A stretch of 34,882 nt of DNA. Origin: Chthoniobacterales bacterium (GTDB lineage Bacteria > Verrucomicrobiota > Verrucomicrobiia > Chthoniobacterales > JACTMZ01). Positions 15,698 to 32,659 of this stretch are shown here, piece by piece (the stretch's first letter is position 1; the number at the start of each line of letters is the position of its first letter). A program made the position numbers and the translations under genes. The notes beneath the pieces were generated by a model. The model was not told the DNA's origin and ran no database searches. It worked only from the letters and a program-made list of their open reading frames with translations. Location of the stretch: assembly GCA_017853515.1 (NCBI GenBank), contig JAFMJK010000003.1:1-34882 (forward strand), read 5' to 3'.

Positions 15698-16780
15698 TTA
15701 CGACTCGAAATCAACCCACTTGACCAAAGAAGCGAGGCGGGGCACGCCGCCATTGTGCCAGGTCCAGTGCGGATCCTGCATGCGTCCGATGGCGCAAAAC
15801 CGCGACGGGCGCAGCGCGGCGAAGCGGTCGGCCAGTTCCTCCGTGCAGGGAAAAAGCCCGACCGCGCCGATGTATTCGGAGGCCGGACCGATCGACGAGG
15901 GCAGACCCTCCGGCAGCGGTTTGACGAAAATGACGCGGTTGAGCGGCGAGGCGGGAAACCACGCGTCTTCTTCGTAGACCACGGTCCAATCGAGATTCGC
16001 ACCCCCCTCCCAAAGGGCCACGCGCAGATCGCCCGCGGCGCGGAAGCGATAGGCGGCGCGGAGGTTGGCGATGGCCGCCTTTTCTTCCGTGGTGAGCGGA
16101 CCGCGCGGATGCGTGCGGTTGAAGCGGTCCATGGCCGAGGCGAGATGTTCCGCATATTCCCGCGCAAATCCGGAAGGCGTGTCCCGCACATAAAAAACCT
16201 GCGGGGAAAGGCATCCCTGCTGATCGAAGAGCGAAGCGTCGCGCGCGGCTCCGTCGCACGAGACAAAATGCGGATCGTCCCAAATGACGCCCAAGCTCGC
16301 CTTGTGCCCGTATCCGATAAAAATTTGCGAAGGCGAGGCCAGCCCGCGAAATCGCGCGACGGTCTCGTCCGAGCCGTAGACCACCACCGCTTCGGCTTCC
16401 GCCAGCCAACCCGGAGGCAACTCTTCCGCGGTTTGGACCTTTGCGCGCAACTCCTCGGGCAGGCGGGTGACAAAATCGCCGATCTCGGCGATCCCGCCGC
16501 GCGGAAGTTTGACCAGATTGCGGCTGCCGAGAAGCAATCCGCCGACGATCGATTGCAGCGCGGCGTGCGGCGTGTTGCCGCTGACCACGTGAAGAATGGT
16601 CTCGGGCGCAAAGGCTTTCGTCCTGCCCTTGCCGTAATCCACCCACTCGTCGATCGCACCGGCATGACCCAGCTCCAGAGCCAACCAAGCCAACAAGTCG
16701 TCCGCCCCCGTCGCACCGAGCAGGGCGCGAAATGGACCGGCCGCGACGGCCAGGGTCCCGGCTCTCTGCGCCGAGGTCAC
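15698..16780 (-). CDS. LuxC-like acyl-CoA/acyl-protein reductase
   Basis: Approx. 360 aa from GTG start ([15 protein letters not shown]); [32 protein letters not shown]; catalytic-Cys-like [13 protein letters not shown]; 4-nt overlap with the PPase stop. Confidence 0.85.
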
Positions 16781-18885
16781 GCGGCAACCCAGAGCTTGAT
16801 GAAGATGGGAATGATCAGGATGGCCACGATGTTGACGACCTTGATCATGGGGTTCACCGCGGGGCCCGCCGTGTCCTTGTATGGATCGCCGACCGTGTCG
16901 CCCGTCACGCTGGCATCGTGGGCGGGAGAGCCCTTGCCGCCGTGACTGCCCAATTCGATGTATTTTTTGGCGTTGTCCCACGCGCCGCCGCTCGAGGTCA
17001 TGGCGATACCGATGAACAGCCCGGTGACGATCGTTCCGACCAGCATGCCTCCGAGCACCTTCGGACCGAAAAACGGCAACCAGGCAACAGCGACCACGAC
17101 CACCACCGGCAGGATGGCCGGTATGATCATTTCGCGCAGCGCCGCCTTGGTCACGATGTCGACGCACGTGCCGTATTCGGGCGTGTCGCTGCCGTCGAGA
17201 ATACCGGGCTTGGCCGCGATCTGCCGTCGGACCTCCTTGACCACGGCGCCGGCCGCTTTGCCGACGGCATCGAGGCTGAAAGCCGAAAAAATGAAGGGCA
17301 GGCCGCCGCCGATGAACAGCCCGATGATGACGTTGGGATCCTGAAGATCGAACGCGAGGTTGAACTGCGCGCCGAGTTGCGCGTAGGCATTTTTGAGTTC
17401 CTCGACATAGCTGCCGAAGAGAACGAGCGCGGCGAGTCCCGCCGAAGCGATGGCATAGCCCTTGGTCACCGCCTTCATCGTGTTGCCGATGGCGTCGAGA
17501 TCGTCGGTTGTGTGACGCACGCTTTTGTCGAGTCCCGCCATGACCGCGATGCCGCCGGCGTTGTCCGTGATCGGACCGAAAGCGTCGAGCGCGATGACGA
17601 TGCCCGACATGGAAAGCATGGCCATCACGGCGATCGCGATGCCGTAGAGTCCCGCGAAATTATACGACAGCATGATCGCGATGCCGATGAAGGCCACGGG
17701 GAGCGCGGTGGCATGGAGTCCGGTGGCCAATCCGGAAATGATGTTGGTGGCGTGGCCCGTTTCGGAGGCCTGCGCGATCATGCGCACGGGCCGGTGGTTT
17801 GTGGATGTGTAGTAGTTGGTGATGAGAAGCACGACGTAGGTCATGACCAGACCGATGAGCGACGCGCCGAAAACGCTGGCGGCCGAGCAGGCTCCTTTGC
17901 CGTGGATTTCGACGCCCTGCGGGAACAGCACCTGGGTGAGGGGCCAAAAAGCGATGGCGGAGAACAGGGCGCTGGTCAGCACGCCCGCCTGCAGAGCCTG
18001 GCGCGGCGCGAGGTTGATCGCATTGGTCAGAATAATGGCGACGACGGCTCCGATCACCGAAACGCCGCCGACGAGAAACGGATAAACGAGAGCGGCGGGG
18101 GAAGCGTCGCCCGTGGCTGTGAGTGATCCGATGAGAACCGCGCCGATCAGCGAAACAGCGTAGGTTTCGAAAACGTCGGCTGCCATGCCGGCGCAGTCGC
18201 CGACGTTGTCACCCACGTTGTCCGCGATGGTGGCCGGATTCCGCGGATCGTCCTCCTCGAGTTTGCTCTCGATTTTGCCGACGAGATCCGCCCCGACATC
18301 GGCGGCTTTGGTGTAGATTCCCCCGCCGAGCCGCGCAAAAACCGAAACGAGTGAACTGCCCAGCGCCGTCCCGACCAGGGCGTCGAGCGCGGCGCGCGAC
18401 GGGTCGGCCGCGCCGGTGAAATGGCTGATGCCGAGATACATCAGCCCCACGGAAAGAAGGGCGAGCCCGACGACGAGAAGTCCGGTCACGGCGCCTCCAT
18501 TGAGGGCCACGCGCAGGGCCGCGCGCGGGGATTCGGTCGCCGCTTGGGCGGTCCGCACATTGGCCCGCACGGCGATGGTCATTCCGATGTAGCCGGCGGC
18601 CAGAGAGCAGACCGCGCCGACGAAAAATCCGATGGCGGATTCCATACCGCGCCCCACCCAGACCAGGCCGATGATGATGACCGCGATGGTGCCGACACTG
18701 ACGATCTGACGGTTCAGGTAAGCCTTGGCTCCCTGCTGGACGGCGTGCGCTATCTCGCGCATGCGGTCGTTGCCGGAAGGTGCAGCCAAAACCCAGCGTA
18801 TCAACCAACCGGCGTAGGCCAGACCGAGCAAAGCGCAGGCCAACGAGATGAGCAGACCATCGGAAACAAGCGATATCTTGTGCAT
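16777..18885 (-). CDS. hppA: Membrane-bound proton-translocating pyrophosphatase (H+-PPase)
   Basis: DVGADLVGKIESKLEEDDPRNPATIADNVGDNVGDCAGMAADVFETYAVSLIGA; GDTVGDPYKDTAGPAVNPMIKVVN; start MHKISLVSDG chosen inside ORF 16777..19113. Confidence 0.97.
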   Translation of the reverse strand: MHKISLVSDGLLISLACALLGLAYAGWLIRWVLAAPSGNDRMREIAHAVQQGAKAYLNRQIVSVGTIAVIIIGLVWVGRGMESAIGFFVGAVCSLAAGYIGMTIAVRANVRTAQAATESPRAALRVALNGGAVTGLLVVGLALLSVGLMYLGISHFTGAADPSRAALDALVGTALGSSLVSVFARLGGGIYTKAADVGADLVGKIESKLEEDDPRNPATIADNVGDNVGDCAGMAADVFETYAVSLIGAVLIGSLTATGDASPAALVYPFLVGGVSVIGAVVAIILTNAINLAPRQALQAGVLTSALFSAIAFWPLTQVLFPQGVEIHGKGACSAASVFGASLIGLVMTYVVLLITNYYTSTNHRPVRMIAQASETGHATNIISGLATGLHATALPVAFIGIAIMLSYNFAGLYGIAIAVMAMLSMSGIVIALDAFGPITDNAGGIAVMAGLDKSVRHTTDDLDAIGNTMKAVTKGYAIASAGLAALVLFGSYVEELKNAYAQLGAQFNLAFDLQDPNVIIGLFIGGGLPFIFSAFSLDAVGKAAGAVVKEVRRQIAAKPGILDGSDTPEYGTCVDIVTKAALREMIIPAILPVVVVVAVAWLPFFGPKVLGGMLVGTIVTGLFIGIAMTSSGGAWDNAKKYIELGSHGGKGSPAHDASVTGDTVGDPYKDTAGPAVNPMIKVVNIVAILIIPIFIKLWVAA

Positions 18886-18916
18886 AAGAGAAGTGATGAG
18901 GGGAAACGGGAAGTTA

Positions 18917-18934
18917 CCGCCGCGCCTGCGGCGG
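18917..18934. promoter_or_regulatory. Hairpin between the luxE-like gene and hppA
   Basis: CCGCCGC-GCCT-GCGGCGG perfect 7-bp arms; no U-tract follows on the minus strand. Confidence 0.55.
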
Positions 18935-18967
18935 ACAAGGCGAATTGCCGGGTCCCCCGACAACAAA

Positions 18968-19978
18968 TTACGCACCGAACCATTCGTCGGCCGAGCGCGA
19001 GCATCCGCGCGGCAAAGCGGCGGGGTCGCGTCCGAGCAATTCGAATGCGTCGCCGCGTTTGATGGCCAGATCCCGCGTGCGGATGCCGACGACCGATCCG
19101 ACATTGGCCGCATCGTAAATGAGCACGATGCCCGTTTCGCCTTCGCCGACCTCCTCGAGGGTGACCGGATCGGCGATGACGGCCCGGGCCCAGAACGGGC
19201 CGCGATGCAACCCCCGGGGACCGCGGGCGTAGAACTGCGAACTCAGCTCGGTCATGCCGTATTCGTTGCAGATGTCCGCGGGGTCAATGCCGAGCTTGTT
19301 GCCGAACAGCGCATAGAGGTCGGCCCGGGAGATGGTTCTGCCGCTCCCCTTGTATCCGCCTGTTTCCATCGCGCACGAACCGGAGGGAAGCCGGAGGGAA
19401 ATCTTTTGCCGGTCCATCGACTCGAACAAATGCAAAAACCCGAGCGCGGTGCCGAGGAGACAGACCGGTTCCCCGAGGGATGACAAGCGTGCGAGATCGA
19501 TCACCCCTTGCGGCGCGATGAAACTCTCGCGCGGCGCGAGCACGCCGAGCATGTGGCTGAGCGAAGAGTGCGGGGCTTCGTCGGGATGCGGGGCGATGAC
19601 GAGAAAAGGTCCCCGCGGCATACCGGCCAAGCGCCATCCCTCGCGCACCGCGGTCTCATAAATCTCCAGCGTGCGGAAATGGTGCTGACCGAATCCTTCG
19701 CCGGTTGTCCCGCTGGTGCGGAAAGTTTTGGCCGTTTGCCCGGCGGGGAAGCTGCGCAGGTCCGCGTGTTTGAAAGCTTCTTGCGGGACGCAGGGGATTT
19801 GGCGCCATGATTTCACGCTCTCGCCGACCCCCTGCTGCTCGCAAAAAAGACGGTAAGGCGTGTTGTGACGAAAATGGCACGCATGCAACTGGAGAGCCGC
19901 ATCTCCGAACTCGGCGCGGCGGTCTCCCCGGATCCACGAGAGCACCTGCGCCTCCGGATTTGCGGCTTCTTCCTGCAT
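18968..19978 (-). CDS. LuxE-like acyl-protein synthetase (acyl-adenylating enzyme)
   Basis: KTFRTSGTTGEGFGQHHF adenylate-forming motif; QIPCVPQEAFKH; ICNEYGMTELSSQFY; start at 19978 preferred (20011 alternative). Confidence 0.85.
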   Translation of the reverse strand: MQEEAANPEAQVLSWIRGDRRAEFGDAALQLHACHFRHNTPYRLFCEQQGVGESVKSWRQIPCVPQEAFKHADLRSFPAGQTAKTFRTSGTTGEGFGQHHFRTLEIYETAVREGWRLAGMPRGPFLVIAPHPDEAPHSSLSHMLGVLAPRESFIAPQGVIDLARLSSLGEPVCLLGTALGFLHLFESMDRQKISLRLPSGSCAMETGGYKGSGRTISRADLYALFGNKLGIDPADICNEYGMTELSSQFYARGPRGLHRGPFWARAVIADPVTLEEVGEGETGIVLIYDAANVGSVVGIRTRDLAIKRGDAFELLGRDPAALPRGCSRSADEWFGA

Positions 19979-20061
19979 GGCGCTATCCTGCCACCGTCCG
20001 GCGGCGGGCAAACCTCATTTTCTCCTCGCGCGCGGGCGGAAGCGGGGCACATTTTGGACAT

Positions 20062-22887
20062 GTGCGTCTGTGTGTTGTCACTCTTTGCCTCTTGCTGGCG
20101 TCGCTGATCCCGCACACACACGCGGCGGACAAGGTGGCGGCGCAACCGGCCGAAGCCGGCACGGCGCGCGATGTCATTTCGCGCGCGGACACCGCCTACA
20201 ACAACAAGCGTTACGAGGAGGCGGTGGCGGGATACCGCAATTTTCTCGCCGACTTCGGCTCGTCGGCGGAAGCGGCGCCTTGGATGCCCCGCGTGCGCTA
20301 CCACCTGGCTGCCGCGCTCCTGCAATTGCAGAAATACAACGACGCGGTCGAGGCCATCGAGGAAGCCCGCAACATCAAGGAGATGGGCGCGAAAGAAAGG
20401 GAAGATCTCTCTTTCTGGGCGGGCGTGGCTTTGCTGCAGACCGGCAATCACGAGGAGGCGGGCAAAGCGCTGGCCGAATTCCGCCAGGAGTTTCCGCAGT
20501 CCGCCCGCCGCCCGGACGCAGAACTGCTCGCCGCCACCGCGTTGTTGGCCGGGGGAAAAAAGGAGGAGGCGGCCAAGTCGTTCGCCGTCATCCGCAAATC
20601 CCCGAAGCATCCGCATGCCGGGCGCGCCGCGGTGCTTGAGTTGCACTGCCTGATCGAAACGGGTCAGGACAACCCCGCGCTCGAACTTCTTGCCGAGGAG
20701 GGGCCGGAGATGGGCAAAAGGATCAACCAAGTGGCGACCTTCCAGACGCTGGCTCTCGCCCTGGGCGAAAAGCTGCTCGAAGAAGACCGGCCGCGCGATG
20801 CCATCCGCGCTTTGCAGAACGTCTGGGCGCGGGATCGTTTGATCGCCCACCAAAAACGGAAGCTCGAGGAAACCAAGCAGCGTCTGGCCGCGATCGAGGC
20901 CTCGCCCAAGCCGGATGTTTTTGCGCGCGCGCAGGCGAAACAGCTGGTGCGCGAAGTGGAGAAAGAGCTGGCCAACCTCGAAAAGATTCCGTCCTTCGAC
21001 GCTTCGGTCCGCTTCCGTCTGGCCACGGCTTTCCACGCGCAGGAGCGCTACCGCGAGTGCGCCATGTTGCTCGACGATATGTTGCGGCAGATGAAACCGG
21101 ATCCGGTCGTGGAAAAAGCCACGCTCAGCGCCCTGCAAAGTTGGATGGCGATCGAGCGTTACGACCGCGCCATCGAAGCCTCCCAGCTTTTCGAGCAGAA
21201 TTTTCCCGCGTCGAAAAGCCTGCCCCTCGTCATCTACCTGCGCGGCACGGCGCAACAAAAAGCGGAAAAATACGACGATGCCGTGGCGACGTTCTCGGTC
21301 CTGCGCGAAAAATTCGCATCTTCCGAGCAGGCGCCGCGCGCATTTTTCATGACCGGGTTCACGCAGTTGCTGGCAGAGCGCAATGACGAAGCGGCCGAGA
21401 CTTTCCGGCAATTCGAGGAGAAGTATCCCGAGCACGAGTTGGCCGAACCGGCGAACTACTGGCGCGGTTCGGCGCTGGCCTTCGCCAAGAAATTCCCCGA
21501 AGCGCGCGAGGTGCTGGGGGCGCACGCGGAGAAGTTCCCCAAGGGAACGCTGCTCGGACCGGCGGCCTTCCGCCGCGCCTATTGCGCGCAGTCGCTCAAG
21601 GAATACGAGACGGCGGAAGCGGAGTTGAAGGATTACCTGAAAAAGTTCCCCCAAGGCGAAGAGAACGCCGAGGCGCGCATCCTGCTCGGCGATGCCTTGC
21701 TCGCGCAGGCCGAATCGGACGAGGGGAAGAAAGTTTATGCCTCGATCGAGCCCGCGTCGGGGCGTTTCCACGAAGACGCGCAATTCAAGCTGGCCAAGGT
21801 GCTCAAGCTCGAGGAGGACTACGATGGGCTGCGCGACCTGATGCAGAAATACCTGCAGGCCTACCCGCGCAGTCCGCGCGCGGCGGAAGCGCTTTTCCAG
21901 ATCGGGCAGGCGTGGCGCAAACAAGACCAACCCGAGAAGGCGATCGAGGCATACTGGGCGGCCATCGGCGAGCGGGGCAACGACGACCAAGCCTACGCCG
22001 TGGAGGACATGATGCTGGCCCTCGACCGCCACTACAAAGGCGAGTCGGAGAAGCGCGACTTCCAGGCCCGCCTGCGCGCGGTGCGCGAGAAAGCGCAAGC
22101 CGAGGGGCAAAGCGTTCTGACCGTGCGCACCATCTGGGCCCTGGCCCGCAGCGTGAAAAAAACGGATCCCGCGCTGAGCGAAGCTTTGTTGCGGGAGGCC
22201 GGCGCGTTGGCCGAGGCGGAGCGGACCAGTCCGGTGATTCTGGCGGACTGCGCCGAGGCGCAATTCGCCGCCGCCGCCGCTGCCGCGCCCGAGGACGCGG
22301 CCGTGCGCCGGGCCAACGCCGCACAGATTTATCGCGACCTGCTCAAGTGGCACCCGCGCGCGGCGCAGAAAGACAAGGCGCTCGCCGCGCTCGCGCGCAT
22401 CGCTGTCGACGCGGGGGACACCGAGACGGCGCTGGCCTATTACGACCGGCTCGAGCGGGACACACCGTGGTCCTCGCTCATGGGCGAGGTCCTCGCGGCG
22501 CGCGCCGGCATCGAGATGGAAGCGGGGAACACCGACAAGGCGGCGGAGGCATACACGCAGTTGCTCGCCGCGGAAAACGTGCCGAGCAAAATGAAAGCGC
22601 AGGCCCTTCTCGCCCTCGGTGAGATCGAGATGTCGCGCCAGCGGCCGCAGACGGCCATCCCGTATTACCAACGCATCTATGTCCTCTATGGCAAATGGCG
22701 CGAGACCGTGGCGCAGGCTTACCTGCGCAGCGGCGAAGCTTTCGAGCAACTCAAGGATGCCGAGGCCGCGCGAAAAACCTACGAGGAGCTGGCCAACAGC
22801 GAGGACCTCGCATCGCTTCCCGAAGTGCAAACCGCGCGCGAACGCCTGAAGCGGTTTCCCGCCGCGCCGGACCCGTCGTCATCGTGA
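20062..22887 (+). CDS. Large exported tetratricopeptide-repeat protein
   Basis: Signal peptide VRLCVVTLCLLLASLIPHTHAAD from in-frame GTG at 20062; many TPR units (e.g. AAEAYTQLLAAENVPSKMKAQALLALGEIEMSRQRPQTAIPYYQRIY). Confidence 0.88.
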   Translation: MRLCVVTLCLLLASLIPHTHAADKVAAQPAEAGTARDVISRADTAYNNKRYEEAVAGYRNFLADFGSSAEAAPWMPRVRYHLAAALLQLQKYNDAVEAIEEARNIKEMGAKEREDLSFWAGVALLQTGNHEEAGKALAEFRQEFPQSARRPDAELLAATALLAGGKKEEAAKSFAVIRKSPKHPHAGRAAVLELHCLIETGQDNPALELLAEEGPEMGKRINQVATFQTLALALGEKLLEEDRPRDAIRALQNVWARDRLIAHQKRKLEETKQRLAAIEASPKPDVFARAQAKQLVREVEKELANLEKIPSFDASVRFRLATAFHAQERYRECAMLLDDMLRQMKPDPVVEKATLSALQSWMAIERYDRAIEASQLFEQNFPASKSLPLVIYLRGTAQQKAEKYDDAVATFSVLREKFASSEQAPRAFFMTGFTQLLAERNDEAAETFRQFEEKYPEHELAEPANYWRGSALAFAKKFPEAREVLGAHAEKFPKGTLLGPAAFRRAYCAQSLKEYETAEAELKDYLKKFPQGEENAEARILLGDALLAQAESDEGKKVYASIEPASGRFHEDAQFKLAKVLKLEEDYDGLRDLMQKYLQAYPRSPRAAEALFQIGQAWRKQDQPEKAIEAYWAAIGERGNDDQAYAVEDMMLALDRHYKGESEKRDFQARLRAVREKAQAEGQSVLTVRTIWALARSVKKTDPALSEALLREAGALAEAERTSPVILADCAEAQFAAAAAAAPEDAAVRRANAAQIYRDLLKWHPRAAQKDKALAALARIAVDAGDTETALAYYDRLERDTPWSSLMGEVLAARAGIEMEAGNTDKAAEAYTQLLAAENVPSKMKAQALLALGEIEMSRQRPQTAIPYYQRIYVLYGKWRETVAQAYLRSGEAFEQLKDAEAARKTYEELANSEDLASLPEVQTARERLKRFPAAPDPSSS

Positions 22888-23777
22888 GAAAGACCGTCGC
22901 CATCTTTGCCGCCGTCCTCTGCGCAGGCGCCGCGCCGCTCGCGGCGCAGGACACCGTCCATTTGACCGACGGGACGAAGCGCAACGTGAAGATCCTCGGC
23001 TTGCAGGCCGAAGCGTATCTCATTTCGCTTCCGTCACCCGTGCCGGGGCAGGCCGCGGGCACCACGACCATGAAGCGCGACACCGTTTCGCGCATCGTTT
23101 TCGGGCCAGATCCGGTTTTGGACGCGGTGGCCGCCAATGTCGTCGCCGGTTCTCTCTCCTCCGCCCGCTCGCGCTGGCAAAACCTGCAGCCTTTCCTCGG
23201 TATTCCGGAATCGCGCGCCGGCGAGGCGGGTTGTCTTGTCGGGGAAATTCTTCTGCTCGGCCCGGACCCCGCGCGCCACGAGGAGGCGCTGGCCGTTTTC
23301 AAGACGGTCGAAGCGGGCGCGTGGAATGTCGGCGACCGCCAGCGCGCGACACGCGGGCGCCTCATGGCCATGATCAAAAAAGGACAACTCGAGGAAGCTT
23401 CGCTCGAGGCGGAACAGATCGAACGCACGGCGGAGGAACCGGATCTGGTCATCGAGATAAAACTGCTCCTCGCCGAGGCCCGCATGGCGTCGCTCAAGAC
23501 GCTCTTGGCCGACAACCCCCGCTGGAACGAGGATCCGCCGGTGCGCGCCGAGCGGGCGCGCCTCATCCACGAAGGCGTCGAATTCGCGCTCTTTCCTTTT
23601 CTTTTCCACGGCACCAAGCGCGCCCAAGCGGCCCGCGGTCTCTGGCTGGCGCACGGGATCTATGTGCTCGCCGGCGACGAACATGCGGCGCGCGAGGTTG
23701 CCACCGACCTCACGTCGATATATTCCGAAACACCCGAGGCGGAAAAAGCCTCGGCCCTTCCCGACAAAAAATCATGA
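22884..23777 (+). CDS. Exported protein of unknown function in the ExbB/ExbD operon
   Basis: GTG start overlapping the TPR stop by 4 nt; signal peptide VRKTVAIFAAVLCAGAAPLAAQ; DTVHLTDGTKRNVKILGLQAEAYLISL N-terminal domain. Confidence 0.75.
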   Translation: MRKTVAIFAAVLCAGAAPLAAQDTVHLTDGTKRNVKILGLQAEAYLISLPSPVPGQAAGTTTMKRDTVSRIVFGPDPVLDAVAANVVAGSLSSARSRWQNLQPFLGIPESRAGEAGCLVGEILLLGPDPARHEEALAVFKTVEAGAWNVGDRQRATRGRLMAMIKKGQLEEASLEAEQIERTAEEPDLVIEIKLLLAEARMASLKTLLADNPRWNEDPPVRAERARLIHEGVEFALFPFLFHGTKRAQAARGLWLAHGIYVLAGDEHAAREVATDLTSIYSETPEAEKASALPDKKS

Positions 23778-24577
23778 TCACACCGAAATACATCCGAGTC
23801 CTTGCCCTTGCCGCCCTGGCGTTCCTCGCCGTTCTGGCCGGAGCCCAGGCGCAGGACGCGCCCGCAACACCGCCCGCCGGAAAGCCCGCCGTGGAAAAAA
23901 GCCTTCTCGACCTCTTCTTTGCGGGCGGCGCGCTCATGTGGCCGATTCTGGCCTGTTCGGTCGGCACGATCGCGGTCGGTGTCTACTGCTTCATCCAAAT
24001 CAACCAGAAGAAGATGATGCCGAAGGCGCAGGAATCCGCCGTCTCGCAATGTATGCAACTGCGCGACCCGAACGCGGCCTATCAGCTCTGCCAGAGCCAG
24101 CCCAATGTTTTCGCCAACACGATGAGCGCGGCCTTGCTCAAAGTGAACTTCGAACGGGAATTGGCCAACAAGCTGTCCATGGAACAGGCCGCCGGCGAAA
24201 CGCTCATGCAGGAAGAGCAACGGCTCATGATCTGGGTCAACTACCTCAACATCTTCGCCACCATCGCGCCGATGCTCGGTTTGCTCGGCACGGTCACCGG
24301 CATGATCCAGAGTTTCGACCAGCTGGCCGCGGGTCGGAGCGAACCGTCCGACCTGGCCGGCGGTATCGGCGAGGCGATGTTGACCACGGCGGGCGGACTC
24401 ATCGTCGGCATTCCGGCAATGTTTCTCTTCTTCTACTTCCGCAACCTCCTGCAGGTGGCGATCGGCAACATCCAGAAAGCGGTCACTTTCATGATTGATG
24501 TGCTTTCGGGCGAATTGAAGCTCGAGAGCGCGGTGCATTCGCACGAGGTCGCGGCCGAGGAACCCGCCGAGGAATAG
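23774..24577 (+). CDS. MotA/TolQ/ExbB proton-channel family protein with N-terminal signal peptide
   Basis: MITPKYIRVLALAALAFLAVLAGAQAQ; APMLGLLGTVTGMIQSFDQLAAG...GGIGEAMLTTAGGLIVGIPAMFLFFYF; ATGA overlap with the previous gene. Confidence 0.95.
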   Translation: MITPKYIRVLALAALAFLAVLAGAQAQDAPATPPAGKPAVEKSLLDLFFAGGALMWPILACSVGTIAVGVYCFIQINQKKMMPKAQESAVSQCMQLRDPNAAYQLCQSQPNVFANTMSAALLKVNFERELANKLSMEQAAGETLMQEEQRLMIWVNYLNIFATIAPMLGLLGTVTGMIQSFDQLAAGRSEPSDLAGGIGEAMLTTAGGLIVGIPAMFLFFYFRNLLQVAIGNIQKAVTFMIDVLSGELKLESAVHSHEVAAEEPAEE

Positions 24578-24598
24578 CCCCGCGTCTTTGATCCCGTC

Positions 24599-25006
24599 AT
24601 GAAGATCTCCCGCCGCCCCGACGACGAGATGGGCTTTCAACTCGCCCCGATGATCGACATGACTTTCCTCCTGCTCATCTTTTTCATGGTGACGACGAAG
24701 ATTTCCAAGGAGCAGATCAAGGAGGAGATCAAGCTGCCGGTGGCGAGCAACGCCGTCATCCCGAAGGACATCAGCAACCGCGACATCATCAGCATCGACG
24801 ATCAGGGCCGCTATTTCATCGGCGCCGAGCCGACCGACAAAAAGCGTTTGGCCGACTACCTGAAGAAGCGCTTCGAAAACACGCCGCCCCTGCGCCTTTA
24901 CATCCGGGCCGACAAAACGACGCCCGCCAAAAAAATCAAAGAAGTCATGAAGATGGCCGCGGACGCCGGGGCGATCGATGTGATCTTCGGCAGCTACCAA
25001 ACCTGA
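24599..25006 (+). CDS. ExbD/TolR-family biopolymer transport protein (first copy)
   Basis: FQLAPMIDMTFLLLIFFMVTTK TM helix with Asp; periplasmic LYIRADKTTPAKKIKEVMKMAADAGAIDV. Confidence 0.94.
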   Translation: MKISRRPDDEMGFQLAPMIDMTFLLLIFFMVTTKISKEQIKEEIKLPVASNAVIPKDISNRDIISIDDQGRYFIGAEPTDKKRLADYLKKRFENTPPLRLYIRADKTTPAKKIKEVMKMAADAGAIDVIFGSYQT

Positions 25007-25009
25007 ACC

Positions 25010-25459
25010 ATGCAAGTCCGCCGTCGCGACCAGCAGCTCGTCGAGATGCAAATGGGCCCCATGATCGACATGGTGTTCCTGCTCCTTGTCTTCTTCATGG
25101 TCACGGCCAAGCCGGTGAAACAGGAAAGCGACATCAGCCTCGGGTTGCCCGGCACGGTCTCGGCGGAGGAAACGGTGGAGTTGCCCGACGAGCAGCGCAT
25201 CCGCATCGAGGACGACGGCAGTGTCGTGCTCAACGACTCCGTGATCGGACCGCCGGCCGACAGCGCGTTGACCGGGCTTGTCGCCACGCTCAAGCGCTTC
25301 AAGGAATCGGCCGACGCGAACAAGGCCGACGCGCTGGTCACGCTGGATGCTTCCGACGGGACCAATCAGCAACGCATCGTCGATGTTCTCAACGCCTGCG
25401 CCAAGGCCGACATCGGCGGTGTGACCTTCTCGGACAGCGCGAGCGAGGAGGAGATGTAG
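25010..25459 (+). CDS. ExbD/TolR-family biopolymer transport protein (second copy)
   Basis: MQMGPMIDMVFLLLVFFMVTAK TM helix with Asp; VTLDASDGTNQQRIVDVLNACAKADIGGVTF. Confidence 0.93.
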   Translation: MQVRRRDQQLVEMQMGPMIDMVFLLLVFFMVTAKPVKQESDISLGLPGTVSAEETVELPDEQRIRIEDDGSVVLNDSVIGPPADSALTGLVATLKRFKESADANKADALVTLDASDGTNQQRIVDVLNACAKADIGGVTFSDSASEEEM

Positions 25460-25466
25460 CGTTGCG

Positions 25467-26570
25467 ATGACGACGGAGACTCTCGATCCGCAGATCGCCG
25501 CCCGTCAGCGACGCAAGAGGTTGATCGTCACGGTCATCGTGGCCAGTATTGCCGTGCACTTCATCGGCGCGATTGGAGCCGGTATCTGGATCGTCGCGCG
25601 CTATTTTCTCCCGCCGGCCGCCACGTTCGAAGTGAAGAAGGAAATCCGCATCGCCGCCGAGGAGCGCGAGCACCGCATGAACATGGCGGAGTTCGACGCG
25701 GCGCAGCCCAAGCCGACTTTCACCGACAAGATGTCTTCGGCGCGGCCGACGGAGTTCGCGCTGCCCGACTTGCCGCTCCTGCCGGTGGACACGGCGACTA
25801 CGCTCGATCCGAGCGACATCGTGTCCGATCAACTCTCCGCCCTCGCCGGCGCAGGCGCCGGCGCGGGAACCGGATCCGGCGGCGGGGGGAAGAGTGGCTC
25901 GGCGGTCAGTTTCTTCGGTATTTCCGACATGGCCACGCGCGTCATTATCGTCGTCGATGTTTCCAACACGATGTTCGACCGCCAGCCCGGCAAGTTCCAC
26001 GCGGTCAAGACGGAGGTGGCCAAGCTCATCCAGGGCCTGGGGATCAACACCCTTTTCAATGTCATCATCTACGAGGGCGGATCGGTCGCCATGTTCCCCG
26101 AACCGCAGCCGGCTTCGGATGGCAACAAAGCCAAGGCGGCCGCTTGGGTGGAAAGTGTCGATGGAGGCAGCGACAAGTCGGGCGCGTCCTACAAGAGCAA
26201 ATACAGCCAGATGGGCACCGGCCTTTACGAAGGCGGAGGCACGCGCACCGATACCGCGCTGAAGCAGGCGCTGTCCATGCGGCCGAGCACGGTTTTTCTC
26301 ATCACCGACGGCGAGATGAGCCGGATGGGTGGCGGCGCGCCCGCCGAAGAGGAAGACCGCAAGAAGGATGACGGTGCGAGCTCCGATATCACCGAGGCCG
26401 AGTTGCTCCGCATGATCAAAGACCTGCAGGGCAAAATGGAGCAGCCCGCGAGGATCCACGTGGTTCATTTTCTGACCAAAGCCGCGCGCGACGAGGAGGA
26501 AAAAGTGTTGCGCTCGGTGGCGCGGCGCAACGACGGCCGCTTCCAACAGGTCAAAGCCGAGGATTACTGA
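25467..26570 (+). CDS. Single-TM protein with Gly/Ala linker and C-terminal VWA-like domain
   Basis: N-terminal TM RLIVTVIVASIAVHFIGAIGAGIWIVARYF; linker AGAGAGAGTGSGGGGKSGSAVSFFGI; MIDAS-like DVSNT, GGGTRTDTAL, FLITDGEMS. Confidence 0.85.
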   Translation: MTTETLDPQIAARQRRKRLIVTVIVASIAVHFIGAIGAGIWIVARYFLPPAATFEVKKEIRIAAEEREHRMNMAEFDAAQPKPTFTDKMSSARPTEFALPDLPLLPVDTATTLDPSDIVSDQLSALAGAGAGAGTGSGGGGKSGSAVSFFGISDMATRVIIVVDVSNTMFDRQPGKFHAVKTEVAKLIQGLGINTLFNVIIYEGGSVAMFPEPQPASDGNKAKAAAWVESVDGGSDKSGASYKSKYSQMGTGLYEGGGTRTDTALKQALSMRPSTVFLITDGEMSRMGGGAPAEEEDRKKDDGASSDITEAELLRMIKDLQGKMEQPARIHVVHFLTKAARDEEEKVLRSVARRNDGRFQQVKAEDY

Positions 26571-26624: not shown

Positions 26625-27347
26625 ATGGTGGAAATCCTGGAGAAACTTCTCCTCCTGCAGGAGCGCGATCAGAAGCTGCAGGCTTTTCACCATGAGATCA
26701 ACGGCGTGCCGGGTGAGAAAGCCGCGTTGCAGAGGGAGCTCGATGCCGCCCAGCGCACGCTGGAGAACGACAAAGCCCGCGCCACCCAGATCGAAATCGA
26801 GCGCAAGCGGCTCGAGGTCGAGGCCGATGCCAAGCGTGCGCAGATCGCCAAATACCAGACGCAGCAACTCGAGACGCGCAAGAACGAGGAGTATTCCGCG
26901 CTGAAGCACGAGATCGAGCGCGCGCAGTCGGACATCACATCGATCGAAGACCGCGAACTCGAACTGATGCAGGAATTCGAAGATCTCAAGCCGGTCATTG
27001 CCGCGGCCGACGCGAAATACACCGCCGAAAAAAACCGCGTCGCCGCGCTGGTCAAAACGGCCGACGAAAAAGTCGGCGTGCTGCAGGGCCGGGCAGCCGA
27101 ATTGCAAGTCGAGCGCGAGGCGGTTGCCGCGGAAGTCAAAGCGGCCGACGAGGATCTTTTCGAGCTCTACGAGAAATTGTTCCGCTCCAAAACCGGGCGT
27201 GCCGTCGTTCCGCTCGAAGGCAACCACTGCTCGGGGTGCCACATGACCGTCACCCCCGCCACGCTGCGCGATGCCAAAGTCGGCGCTAGCGTCGTCTCCT
27301 GCGAGCAGTGCGGACGGATTATCTACAACCTGCCGGAGTACGCGTAG
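26625..27347 (+). CDS. Coiled-coil protein with C-terminal C4 zinc ribbon (CT398/CdsZ-like)
   Basis: Long heptad-rich helices followed by CSGCHMTVTPATLRDAKVGASVVSCEQCGRIIYN. Confidence 0.88.
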   Translation: MVEILEKLLLLQERDQKLQAFHHEINGVPGEKAALQRELDAAQRTLENDKARATQIEIERKRLEVEADAKRAQIAKYQTQQLETRKNEEYSALKHEIERAQSDITSIEDRELELMQEFEDLKPVIAAADAKYTAEKNRVAALVKTADEKVGVLQGRAAELQVEREAVAAEVKAADEDLFELYEKLFRSKTGRAVVPLEGNHCSGCHMTVTPATLRDAKVGASVVSCEQCGRIIYNLPEYA

Positions 27348-30422: not shown

Positions 30423-31553
30423 GTGTCTGCCGCCCCGGAACAAAGCATCGTCGAAGTCGTCGAGGAGAACCCGCCTGCCGTCCATGTGCTGCACCATGTG
30501 GACCAATACTTGGCCATCGGCAAGGAGTCCGGCGCATCGGACATCCATCTGAGCGTCAACCTGCGGCCGACGTGGCGCCGCTTCGGGACGCTCGAGCCGA
30601 TCTGGTTGCAGGCGGACAAATTGACCGCGGCCGATACCGAGCGCCTGGCCATGAGTTTTCTCGATGAAGCCCAGAAAAAGCTGCTCGAGGAGCGGGGCGA
30701 TGTGGACTTTGCCTATACCAACGAAAACGGACGCTACCGCACGAGCGTGGTGCGGCACCGTTTGGGTTACGACCTCGTTTTCCGGATCATCCAGGCAAGC
30801 GTGCGTTCCATGGACGAACTTGGACTGCCGCCGCAACTCAAGCTTCTCACCCAATTTCAGAACGGGTTGGTTCTGGTCACGGGTTCGGTCGGCAGCGGCA
30901 AGAGCACGACGCTTGCCGCGCTGGTCGAGGAGGTGAACCGCACGCGCCACGAACACATCATCACGCTGGAGGATCCGATCGAATACCTTTTCACCCCGCA
31001 GGGCTGCCAGGTGAACCAGCGCGAAGTGCACACCCATACCGAATCGTTCGGCGCCGCGCTGCGCGGTGCTTTGCGCGAGGATCCGGATGTCATCATGGTC
31101 GGCGAAATGCGCGATCTGGAGACCATCTCGCTGGCCATCACGGCCTCGGAGACCGGCCACTTGGTGCTCGGCACCCTGCACACCGGCAATGCGGCACGAA
31201 CGCTTGACCGCTTGCTCGACGTCTTCCCGGTCGACCAGCGCGAACAGATCCGCACCATGGTCAGCGAGTCGTTGCGCGGGATCATTTCCCAGCAACTCGT
31301 GCCGCGCGCCGACGGAGCGGGCCGGGCGCTGGCCATCGAAATTCTCATGAACACCCCGGCGGTGGCCAACGTCATCCGTGAATCGAAAACGTTCATGCTT
31401 CCCGGGATCATCCAGACGGGCAAAAAGCTGGGCATGAAGCTGATGGATGATTCATTGGCCGACCTCTACCGTGCGGGACTCATCTCCGCCGACGAAGCGG
31501 TGTCGCGCGCCGAGCAGAAGCCGGCCATGAAGCAAATCTGCGGCGTCATCTGA
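30423..31553 (+). CDS. PilT-family type IV pilus retraction ATPase (first copy)
   Basis: 376 aa; Walker [51 protein letters not shown] start. Confidence 0.93.
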   Translation: MSAAPEQSIVEVVEENPPAVHVLHHVDQYLAIGKESGASDIHLSVNLRPTWRRFGTLEPIWLQADKLTAADTERLAMSFLDEAQKKLLEERGDVDFAYTNENGRYRTSVVRHRLGYDLVFRIIQASVRSMDELGLPPQLKLLTQFQNGLVLVTGSVGSGKSTTLAALVEEVNRTRHEHIITLEDPIEYLFTPQGCQVNQREVHTHTESFGAALRGALREDPDVIMVGEMRDLETISLAITASETGHLVLGTLHTGNAARTLDRLLDVFPVDQREQIRTMVSESLRGIISQQLVPRADGAGRALAIEILMNTPAVANVIRESKTFMLPGIIQTGKKLGMKLMDDSLADLYRAGLISADEAVSRAEQKPAMKQICGVI

Positions 31554-31558
31554 CTTTT

Positions 31559-32659
31559 ATGGCCCACCGTATCGACCAACTTTTCGAAGTGCTGATCAAC
31601 GCGGGCGCTTCCGATCTGCATTTGGCCGAAGGCCAACCGCCGAAGATCCGCCGTCATGGCGACGTCATTCCAATCCGCGACGAGGTGCTCACCGCGGACG
31701 AAATGAACTACATGCTCAGCGAGATCTGCACGCCGAAGAACTGGGAGCGGTTCCAGAACAAAGGCGACCTCGACTTCGCCTACGAGATGAACGAGGACAG
31801 CCGGTTCCGCTGCAATTATTTCAAGCAGGTGCACGGCTTGGGCGCCGTCTTCCGGTTGATCCCGACGCGCATCGCCACGATCGACGAATTGGGCCTTCCT
31901 CCGGTCATCAAGGAGTTCGGTCACCTCCGCGGGGGCCTTGTCCTCGTCACCGGCCCGACCGGATCCGGCAAGAGCACGACCCTGGCCGCGCTCATGGACT
32001 ACATCAACACCAACTTCGCCCGCCACATCGTCACGGTGGAGGAGCCGATCGAGTTCGTGCACTCGAACAAGAGCAGCATCATCACGCAGCGCGAGGTTCC
32101 CGAACACTCGGCGAATTTTCCGGCGGGACTGAAGGCGGCGCTGCGCGAGGATTCCGATATCGTCCTCGTCGGCGAGATGCGCGACTTGGAGACAATATCG
32201 CTGGCTTTGACCGCTGCGGAAACGGGCCTGCTTGTTTTCGGAACGTTGCACACCAACAACGCGCGCAAGACGGTCGACCGCATGATCGATGTCTTTCCCT
32301 CGGACCAGCAGGCGCAGGTCCGCACCATGCTCGCGTCTTCGCTGCGGGGTGTGGTCGCGCAGTTGCTGCTCAAGCGGCACGACGGCGGCGGGCGCATTGC
32401 CGTGAACGAAATTCTCGTCGTCAACAGCGCGGTCGGGGCCATCATTCGCGAGGGGGCCACGCAGAAGTTGCAGGACGCCATCGTGGGCGGCAAGGCGCAG
32501 GGCATGCAATTCATGGACGATGCCATCTGGGCCCAACTCCAGCAGGGACACGTTTCACCGCACGAGGCCTTCATGAAGGCGATCGACAAGAGCCGCTTCA
32601 AAGCATTTCTCCCGGAGGAGGAGGCCCAGCTGGCCAACTCGGCCGGTGGCGCCGCGTAG
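31559..32659 (+). CDS. pilT: PilT/PilU-family type IV pilus retraction ATPase (second copy)
   Basis: 366 aa; [20 protein letters not shown]; Walker [60 protein letters not shown]. Confidence 0.94.

Follow-up and report, generated by a model that had tools for sequence, protein, structure and literature searches.

Gene content of the locus

The window, meaning the whole 34,882-nucleotide stretch analysed here, comes from a Chthoniobacterales bacterium whose assembly spans 2.2 Mb and is 90.9% complete. A cassette of six genes lies at 20062-26570, where the first-pass annotation had placed it, and encodes, in this order, a TPR protein, an exported protein referred to here as UNK, an ExbB-like subunit, two ExbD paralogues, and a protein that joins a TM helix to a VWA domain (TM-VWA).

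20062..22887, + strand: TPR protein of 941 aa with a signal-peptide-like start (Pfam TPR_6 2.4e-31, YfiO 6.5e-18)
22884..23777, + strand: UNK, exported protein of 297 aa (no Pfam match)
23774..24577, + strand: ExbB/TolQ-like motor subunit (Pfam MotA_ExbB 3.8e-25)
24599..25006, + strand: ExbD1/TolR-like subunit with Asp20 in the TM helix (Pfam ExbD 1.1e-21)
25010..25459, + strand: ExbD2/TolR-like subunit, the second paralogue, with Asp20 in the TM helix (Pfam ExbD 2.5e-19)
25467..26570, + strand: TM-VWA transducer of 367 aa (Pfam VWA_3 1.2e-6, VWA_2 3.9e-6; VWA fold by Foldseek)

The coupling of the genes is also as annotated: TPR and UNK overlap by GTGA, UNK and ExbB by ATGA, and the remaining gaps measure 21, 3, and 7 nt. 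The TPR gene is the first of the cassette and is conserved across related loci; its open frame extends back to an ATG at 19807, and it is the GTG at 20062 that gives the signal-peptide-like start. None of the six proteins matched the PADLOC models for Zorya-type and other listed defence systems.

Around the cassette, the window encodes an H+-translocating pyrophosphatase shortly upstream (16777-19113, - strand), a divergent LuxE-like acyl-protein synthetase (18968-20011, - strand) that recurs beside many related loci, a CT398-type coiled coil with a zinc ribbon directly 3' of the cassette (26625-27347, + strand), kept in most same-genus loci, and, in two neighbouring genes, type II/IV secretion ATPases (T2SSE; 30423-32659, + strand).

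Conservation and distribution of the cassette

The order TPR-UNK-ExbB-ExbD-ExbD-VWA, whose conservation had been proposed as a check, recurs in related genomes and across Verrucomicrobiota, which excludes a chance arrangement. Among eight named relatives, which are Chthoniobacterales (Verrucomicrobiota), seven carry the full order with ExbD1 before ExbD2, and one (L022) carries TPR-UNK-VWA only; genes of the relatives were called as stop-to-stop ORFs and scored by profiles built in this analysis. The VWA profile matches 70 of 213 genomes of the order, some by partial or weak matches only, and the UNK profile matches 58 of 213, in some cases only weakly and at a different locus. In the phylum sample, transducers with the N-terminal module of TM-VWA (N-module) are present in 125 of 370 good genomes. 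The fetched DNA contains 152 distinct transducers, 95 of which adjoin a motor.

A profile search did not find the cassette VWA in the congeners G001, G004, and G005. Since G004 is rated 100% complete, the cassette is probably accessory rather than housekeeping, and its occurrence in only some genomes favours an accessory role (in adhesion, movement, secretion, or sensing) over an essential one. VWA genes unlinked to exbBD, which the first-pass annotation had named as evidence against a coupled machine, do exist, at three loci of genus g16 that carry TPR-UNK-VWA without ExbBD and as unlinked copies elsewhere, but they are a minority of the VWA type. In genome G056, a motor (L101 6215-11067, - strand), TPR-UNK-VWA (L071), and a PA14-like arm (L051) lie on separate contigs, not in one operon.

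Motor subunits and periplasmic proteins

The proton-path residues are intact. The TM Asp is invariant in 95 of 95 aligned relatives for ExbD1 (one further row is gapped) and in 96 of 96 for ExbD2, and the two pore Thr residues of ExbB are invariant in 93 of 93. The best NCBIfam scores are to TolQ for ExbB and to TolR for both ExbDs, all three below the curated cut-offs, and to YbgF for the TPR protein.

A further motor locus of the same genome (L098 7456-10095, - strand, G000:C38) encodes a UNK-like protein, ExbB, ExbD, and ExbD and lacks an arm gene; many genomes of the order have weak UNK-like matches at armless motor loci of this kind. The C38 motor, which served as the outgroup of our motor tree, stands apart from every cassette motor in that tree.

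An ORF of >180 aa fills the UNK slot at every one of the 76 loci that have TPR as well as ExbB, and at 47 of them it is recognisably related to UNK. The AlphaFold2 model of UNK (pLDDT 93.9) shows a small five-stranded beta unit, modelled as a barrel (residues 23-72), and a helical solenoid (residues 77-290), and comparison with the PDB, by sequence and fold, gave weak generic TPR-type matches only. The best-scoring fold, that of a flagellar periplasmic scaffold from Campylobacter (E 3.6e-3, TM 0.33), was kept as a lead only. It is reasonable to regard TPR and UNK as a predicted periplasmic scaffold.

Anatomy of the VWA arm

The arm comprises a TM helix, a conserved region of ~80-100 residues, a Gly/Ala linker, and a VWA head. 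The first two form what we call the docking module.

25521..25841, + strand: docking module, the TM helix with Ser27-x3-His31 plus the conserved region 'RMNMAEFDA..PKP..DK..RPT.F.LPDLP' (His31 retained in nearly all relatives; module also fused to other heads)
25842..25898, + strand: Gly/Ala linker (from sequence, with low pLDDT at 126-141)
25899..26567, + strand: VWA head with MIDAS residues D164, S166, T168 (25956-25970) and D281 (26307-26309)

The TM helix and the linker had been recognized previously, but the linker does not start straight after the TM helix: residues ~47-125 intervene, and their conservation exceeds that of the VWA head. AlphaFold2 and Foldseek support the VWA fold. A PDB search with the single VWA sequence gave nothing useful; with the VWA profile, inter-alpha-trypsin inhibitor VWA domains were matched. 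Regarding the MIDAS, D164, S/T166, S/T168, and D281 are retained in nearly all of 37 relatives, whereas the Thr segment 'GGTRTDTA' is absent in type B, the commonest VWA head type of the order. The metal-dependent adhesion or sensing role that the first-pass annotation had given to the VWA domain stays putative, the middle MIDAS Thr being absent from many relatives.

A TM His of the TonB/TolA type is found in 138 of the 152 transducers, and in 91 of the 95 that adjoin a motor. Compared with the motif spacing of TonB (S16/H20/L27/S31), Ser27 and His31 of the arm fit the SHLS motif, while A38 and I42 occupy the Leu and second Ser positions; the first Ser varies among relatives. No motor gene is seen in the fetched flank of 36 His-bearing transducers, including all 7 of the cyclase type. 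There is also a transducer lineage with Gln in place of His, mostly without a motor nearby, and VWA proteins with this replacement and no ExbBD in the fetched flank were observed at L158, L164, L165, L167, L169, L178-L181, and L218.

One docking module, different heads

The arm is modular, in that the N-terminal docking module (TM helix plus ~100 residues) is common to different heads. This is new here, and the exchangeability of the VWA head had been missed in the first-pass annotation. Proteins that combine this N-terminal module with other heads came to light through partial profile matches; in these, the module is fused to PA14-like or squalene-cyclase-like domains. Even a profile trained solely on VWA arms scores 139, 128, and 103 bits on PA14-like proteins. 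PF07691 reaches 24.5 bits in L157 (cut-off 24) and is weak or absent in the other PA14-like heads, so the name 'PA14-like' is tentative; SQHop_cyclase_C lies above its cut-off in several cyclase-like arms. Some arms also carry a cytoplasmic domain before the TM helix, a Ser/Thr kinase in L055 (Pkinase 4.2e-41) and SAM domains in both arms of L157 (2.9e-18 and 4.3e-16). Head frequencies in this set are biased, as PA14-like and cyclase-like proteins were among the 15 N-module seeds.

The clearest case is L157, where a VWA arm and a PA14-like arm are adjacent: their modules are 92-100% identical at the protein level over 120 columns (364/384 nt), and their heads only ~10-27%. In the tandem arms of L157, L154, L176, and L148, the modules are likewise much more alike than the heads. 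Near-identical modules with differing heads in tandem paralogues are expected if several arms share one motor.

Set against the tree of the remaining cassette, the VWA head type requires at least three changes. On this tree, the hypothesis that VWA type A arose only once is rejected for the wider set (p-AU 9e-72) and not rejected within the genus of the window (p-AU 0.14), and we therefore claim repeated exchange for the wider set only. A PA14-like arm accompanies ExbB-ExbD-ExbD in four operons (L052, L055, L162, and L157), whose motors form one clade, beside a VWA-bearing motor, in the motor tree, so we make no claim that operons often switch to PA14-like heads. The module of L050/L051, which is close to that of the window, suggests a second PA14-like event.

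We see about an even chance that these arms form a Verrucomicrobiota family resembling a tool changer, in which one motor-docking module (the TM His and ~100 residues) would bring PMF-driven movement to interchangeable periplasmic heads. These heads would include several VWA types, PA14-like domains, and squalene-cyclase-like toroids, sometimes with cytoplasmic SAM or kinase domains, and a genome would hold up to at least ten such arms.

Proposed mechanism and alternatives

We consider it fairly likely that the cassette specifies an ExbBD/TolQR-type motor of the inner membrane that is powered by protons and moves a modular VWA transducer, with TPR and UNK as periplasmic scaffold. ExbD1 and ExbD2 probably form a pair within the motor. 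By analogy with ExbBD-TonB and TolQR-TolA, proton flow would turn or stroke this pair inside an ExbB pentamer, the transducer would dock on the side of the pentamer through its TM His and conserved juxtamembrane region, and the motor would pull on or move the transducer, with force reaching whatever the head holds. The VWA head may engage a putative partner at the outer membrane, the peptidoglycan, or the cell surface, while the large TPR protein and UNK would serve as scaffold. The transducer is one branch of a modular family, and as one docking module carries different heads, this type of motor could serve several tasks.

The same components could instead serve signalling or tension sensing, with the motor applying or feeling a load and the arm reporting head binding to the cytoplasm, and no mechanical work at the outer membrane. 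The pre-TM kinase of L055 and the SAM domains of both L157 genes would suit such a role, and VWA and PA14-like domains are typical binding domains. Nevertheless, the cytoplasmic part of the window protein is only ~18 residues long, most relatives have no cytoplasmic domain, and the operon contains no regulator; we judge signalling unlikely. It is quite improbable that the cassette stands in for Tol-Pal, using the PMF to tether or constrict the outer membrane, with its VWA head taking the place of the TolA C-terminal domain. The lack of a TolB_N (PF04052) match in the 90.9% complete genome and the TolQ, TolR, and YbgF scores above, the TolQ and TolR ones below cut-off, point in that direction, but the search of three congeners, one of them rated 100% complete, did not yield the cassette VWA, and only 125 of the 370 good genomes have any N-module transducer.

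Finally, the VWA protein might simply be co-transcribed with a motor that powers a TonB encoded elsewhere, which we regard as highly improbable. An ordinary TonB elsewhere as the sole partner had been named at the outset as counter-evidence; TonB_C proteins do occur, at G000:C255, C71, and C155, but those of C71 and C155 adjoin ExbB/ExbD genes of their own. Neither a TonB-dependent receptor barrel or plug nor TolB was found in the genome, an absence not proven at 90.9% completeness. As no receptor was found, the TonB_C proteins do not remove the need for a VWA transducer. In addition, VWA and motor stay linked across the phylum, and the TM His is present in the VWA protein itself.

Relation to known systems

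Like TonB-ExbBD and TolA-TolQR, the cassette combines an ExbB/ExbD motor with invariant proton-path residues and a single-TM partner with Ser-x3-His. Unlike them, it has two ExbD paralogues in the operon, an arm with a VWA fold instead of the TonB/TolA C-terminal domain, and a genome without a detected TonB receptor barrel or plug. The Agl-Glt gliding motor of Myxococcus has one ExbB-like and two ExbD-like subunits (AglRQS), and the wider system includes TPR proteins and a VWA protein, CglB. CglB is a surface adhesin in its own right, whereas the VWA domain of the cassette belongs to an inner-membrane TonB-like arm.

The idea that a VWA protein takes the TonB position has already been published independently, and the window cassette is of the kind described in the passages of PMC12204202 (Mol Biol Evol 2025, Fig. 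4a,b) considered here. These describe "vWA force transducers" of PVC bacteria, encoded beside TPR, tolQ, and two tolR genes, with a TM helix bearing a conserved His, a domain II of ~100 residues, a C-terminal VWA, and, in many but not all, an SHLS motif. The window arm has the same TM His, domain II, and VWA fold, and its gene likewise follows a TPR gene, a tolQ-like gene, and two tolR-like genes. Those passages also propose motor-driven force transduction, with structural modelling that places the transducer on the side of the ExbB pentamer. The PMF-driven envelope machine put forward in the first-pass annotation is well supported by the conserved gene order, the intact proton path, and the TM His, and it is also their interpretation. 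The same passages do not treat UNK, head exchange, or the cytoplasmic SAM and kinase fusions, and a term search of the main text gave no mention of PA14-like or cyclase-like heads. A literature search for PA14 or cyclase heads with TonB/ExbD found nothing relevant.

If the arms are driven, ExbBD-type motors would have uses other than the opening of TonB receptors and outer-membrane stabilisation, and one module could bring force to adhesive, carbohydrate-binding-like, or enzyme-like heads. With natural pairs such as that of L157, which differ mainly in the head, and with the lineage that has Gln for His, experiments can separate motor docking from head function.
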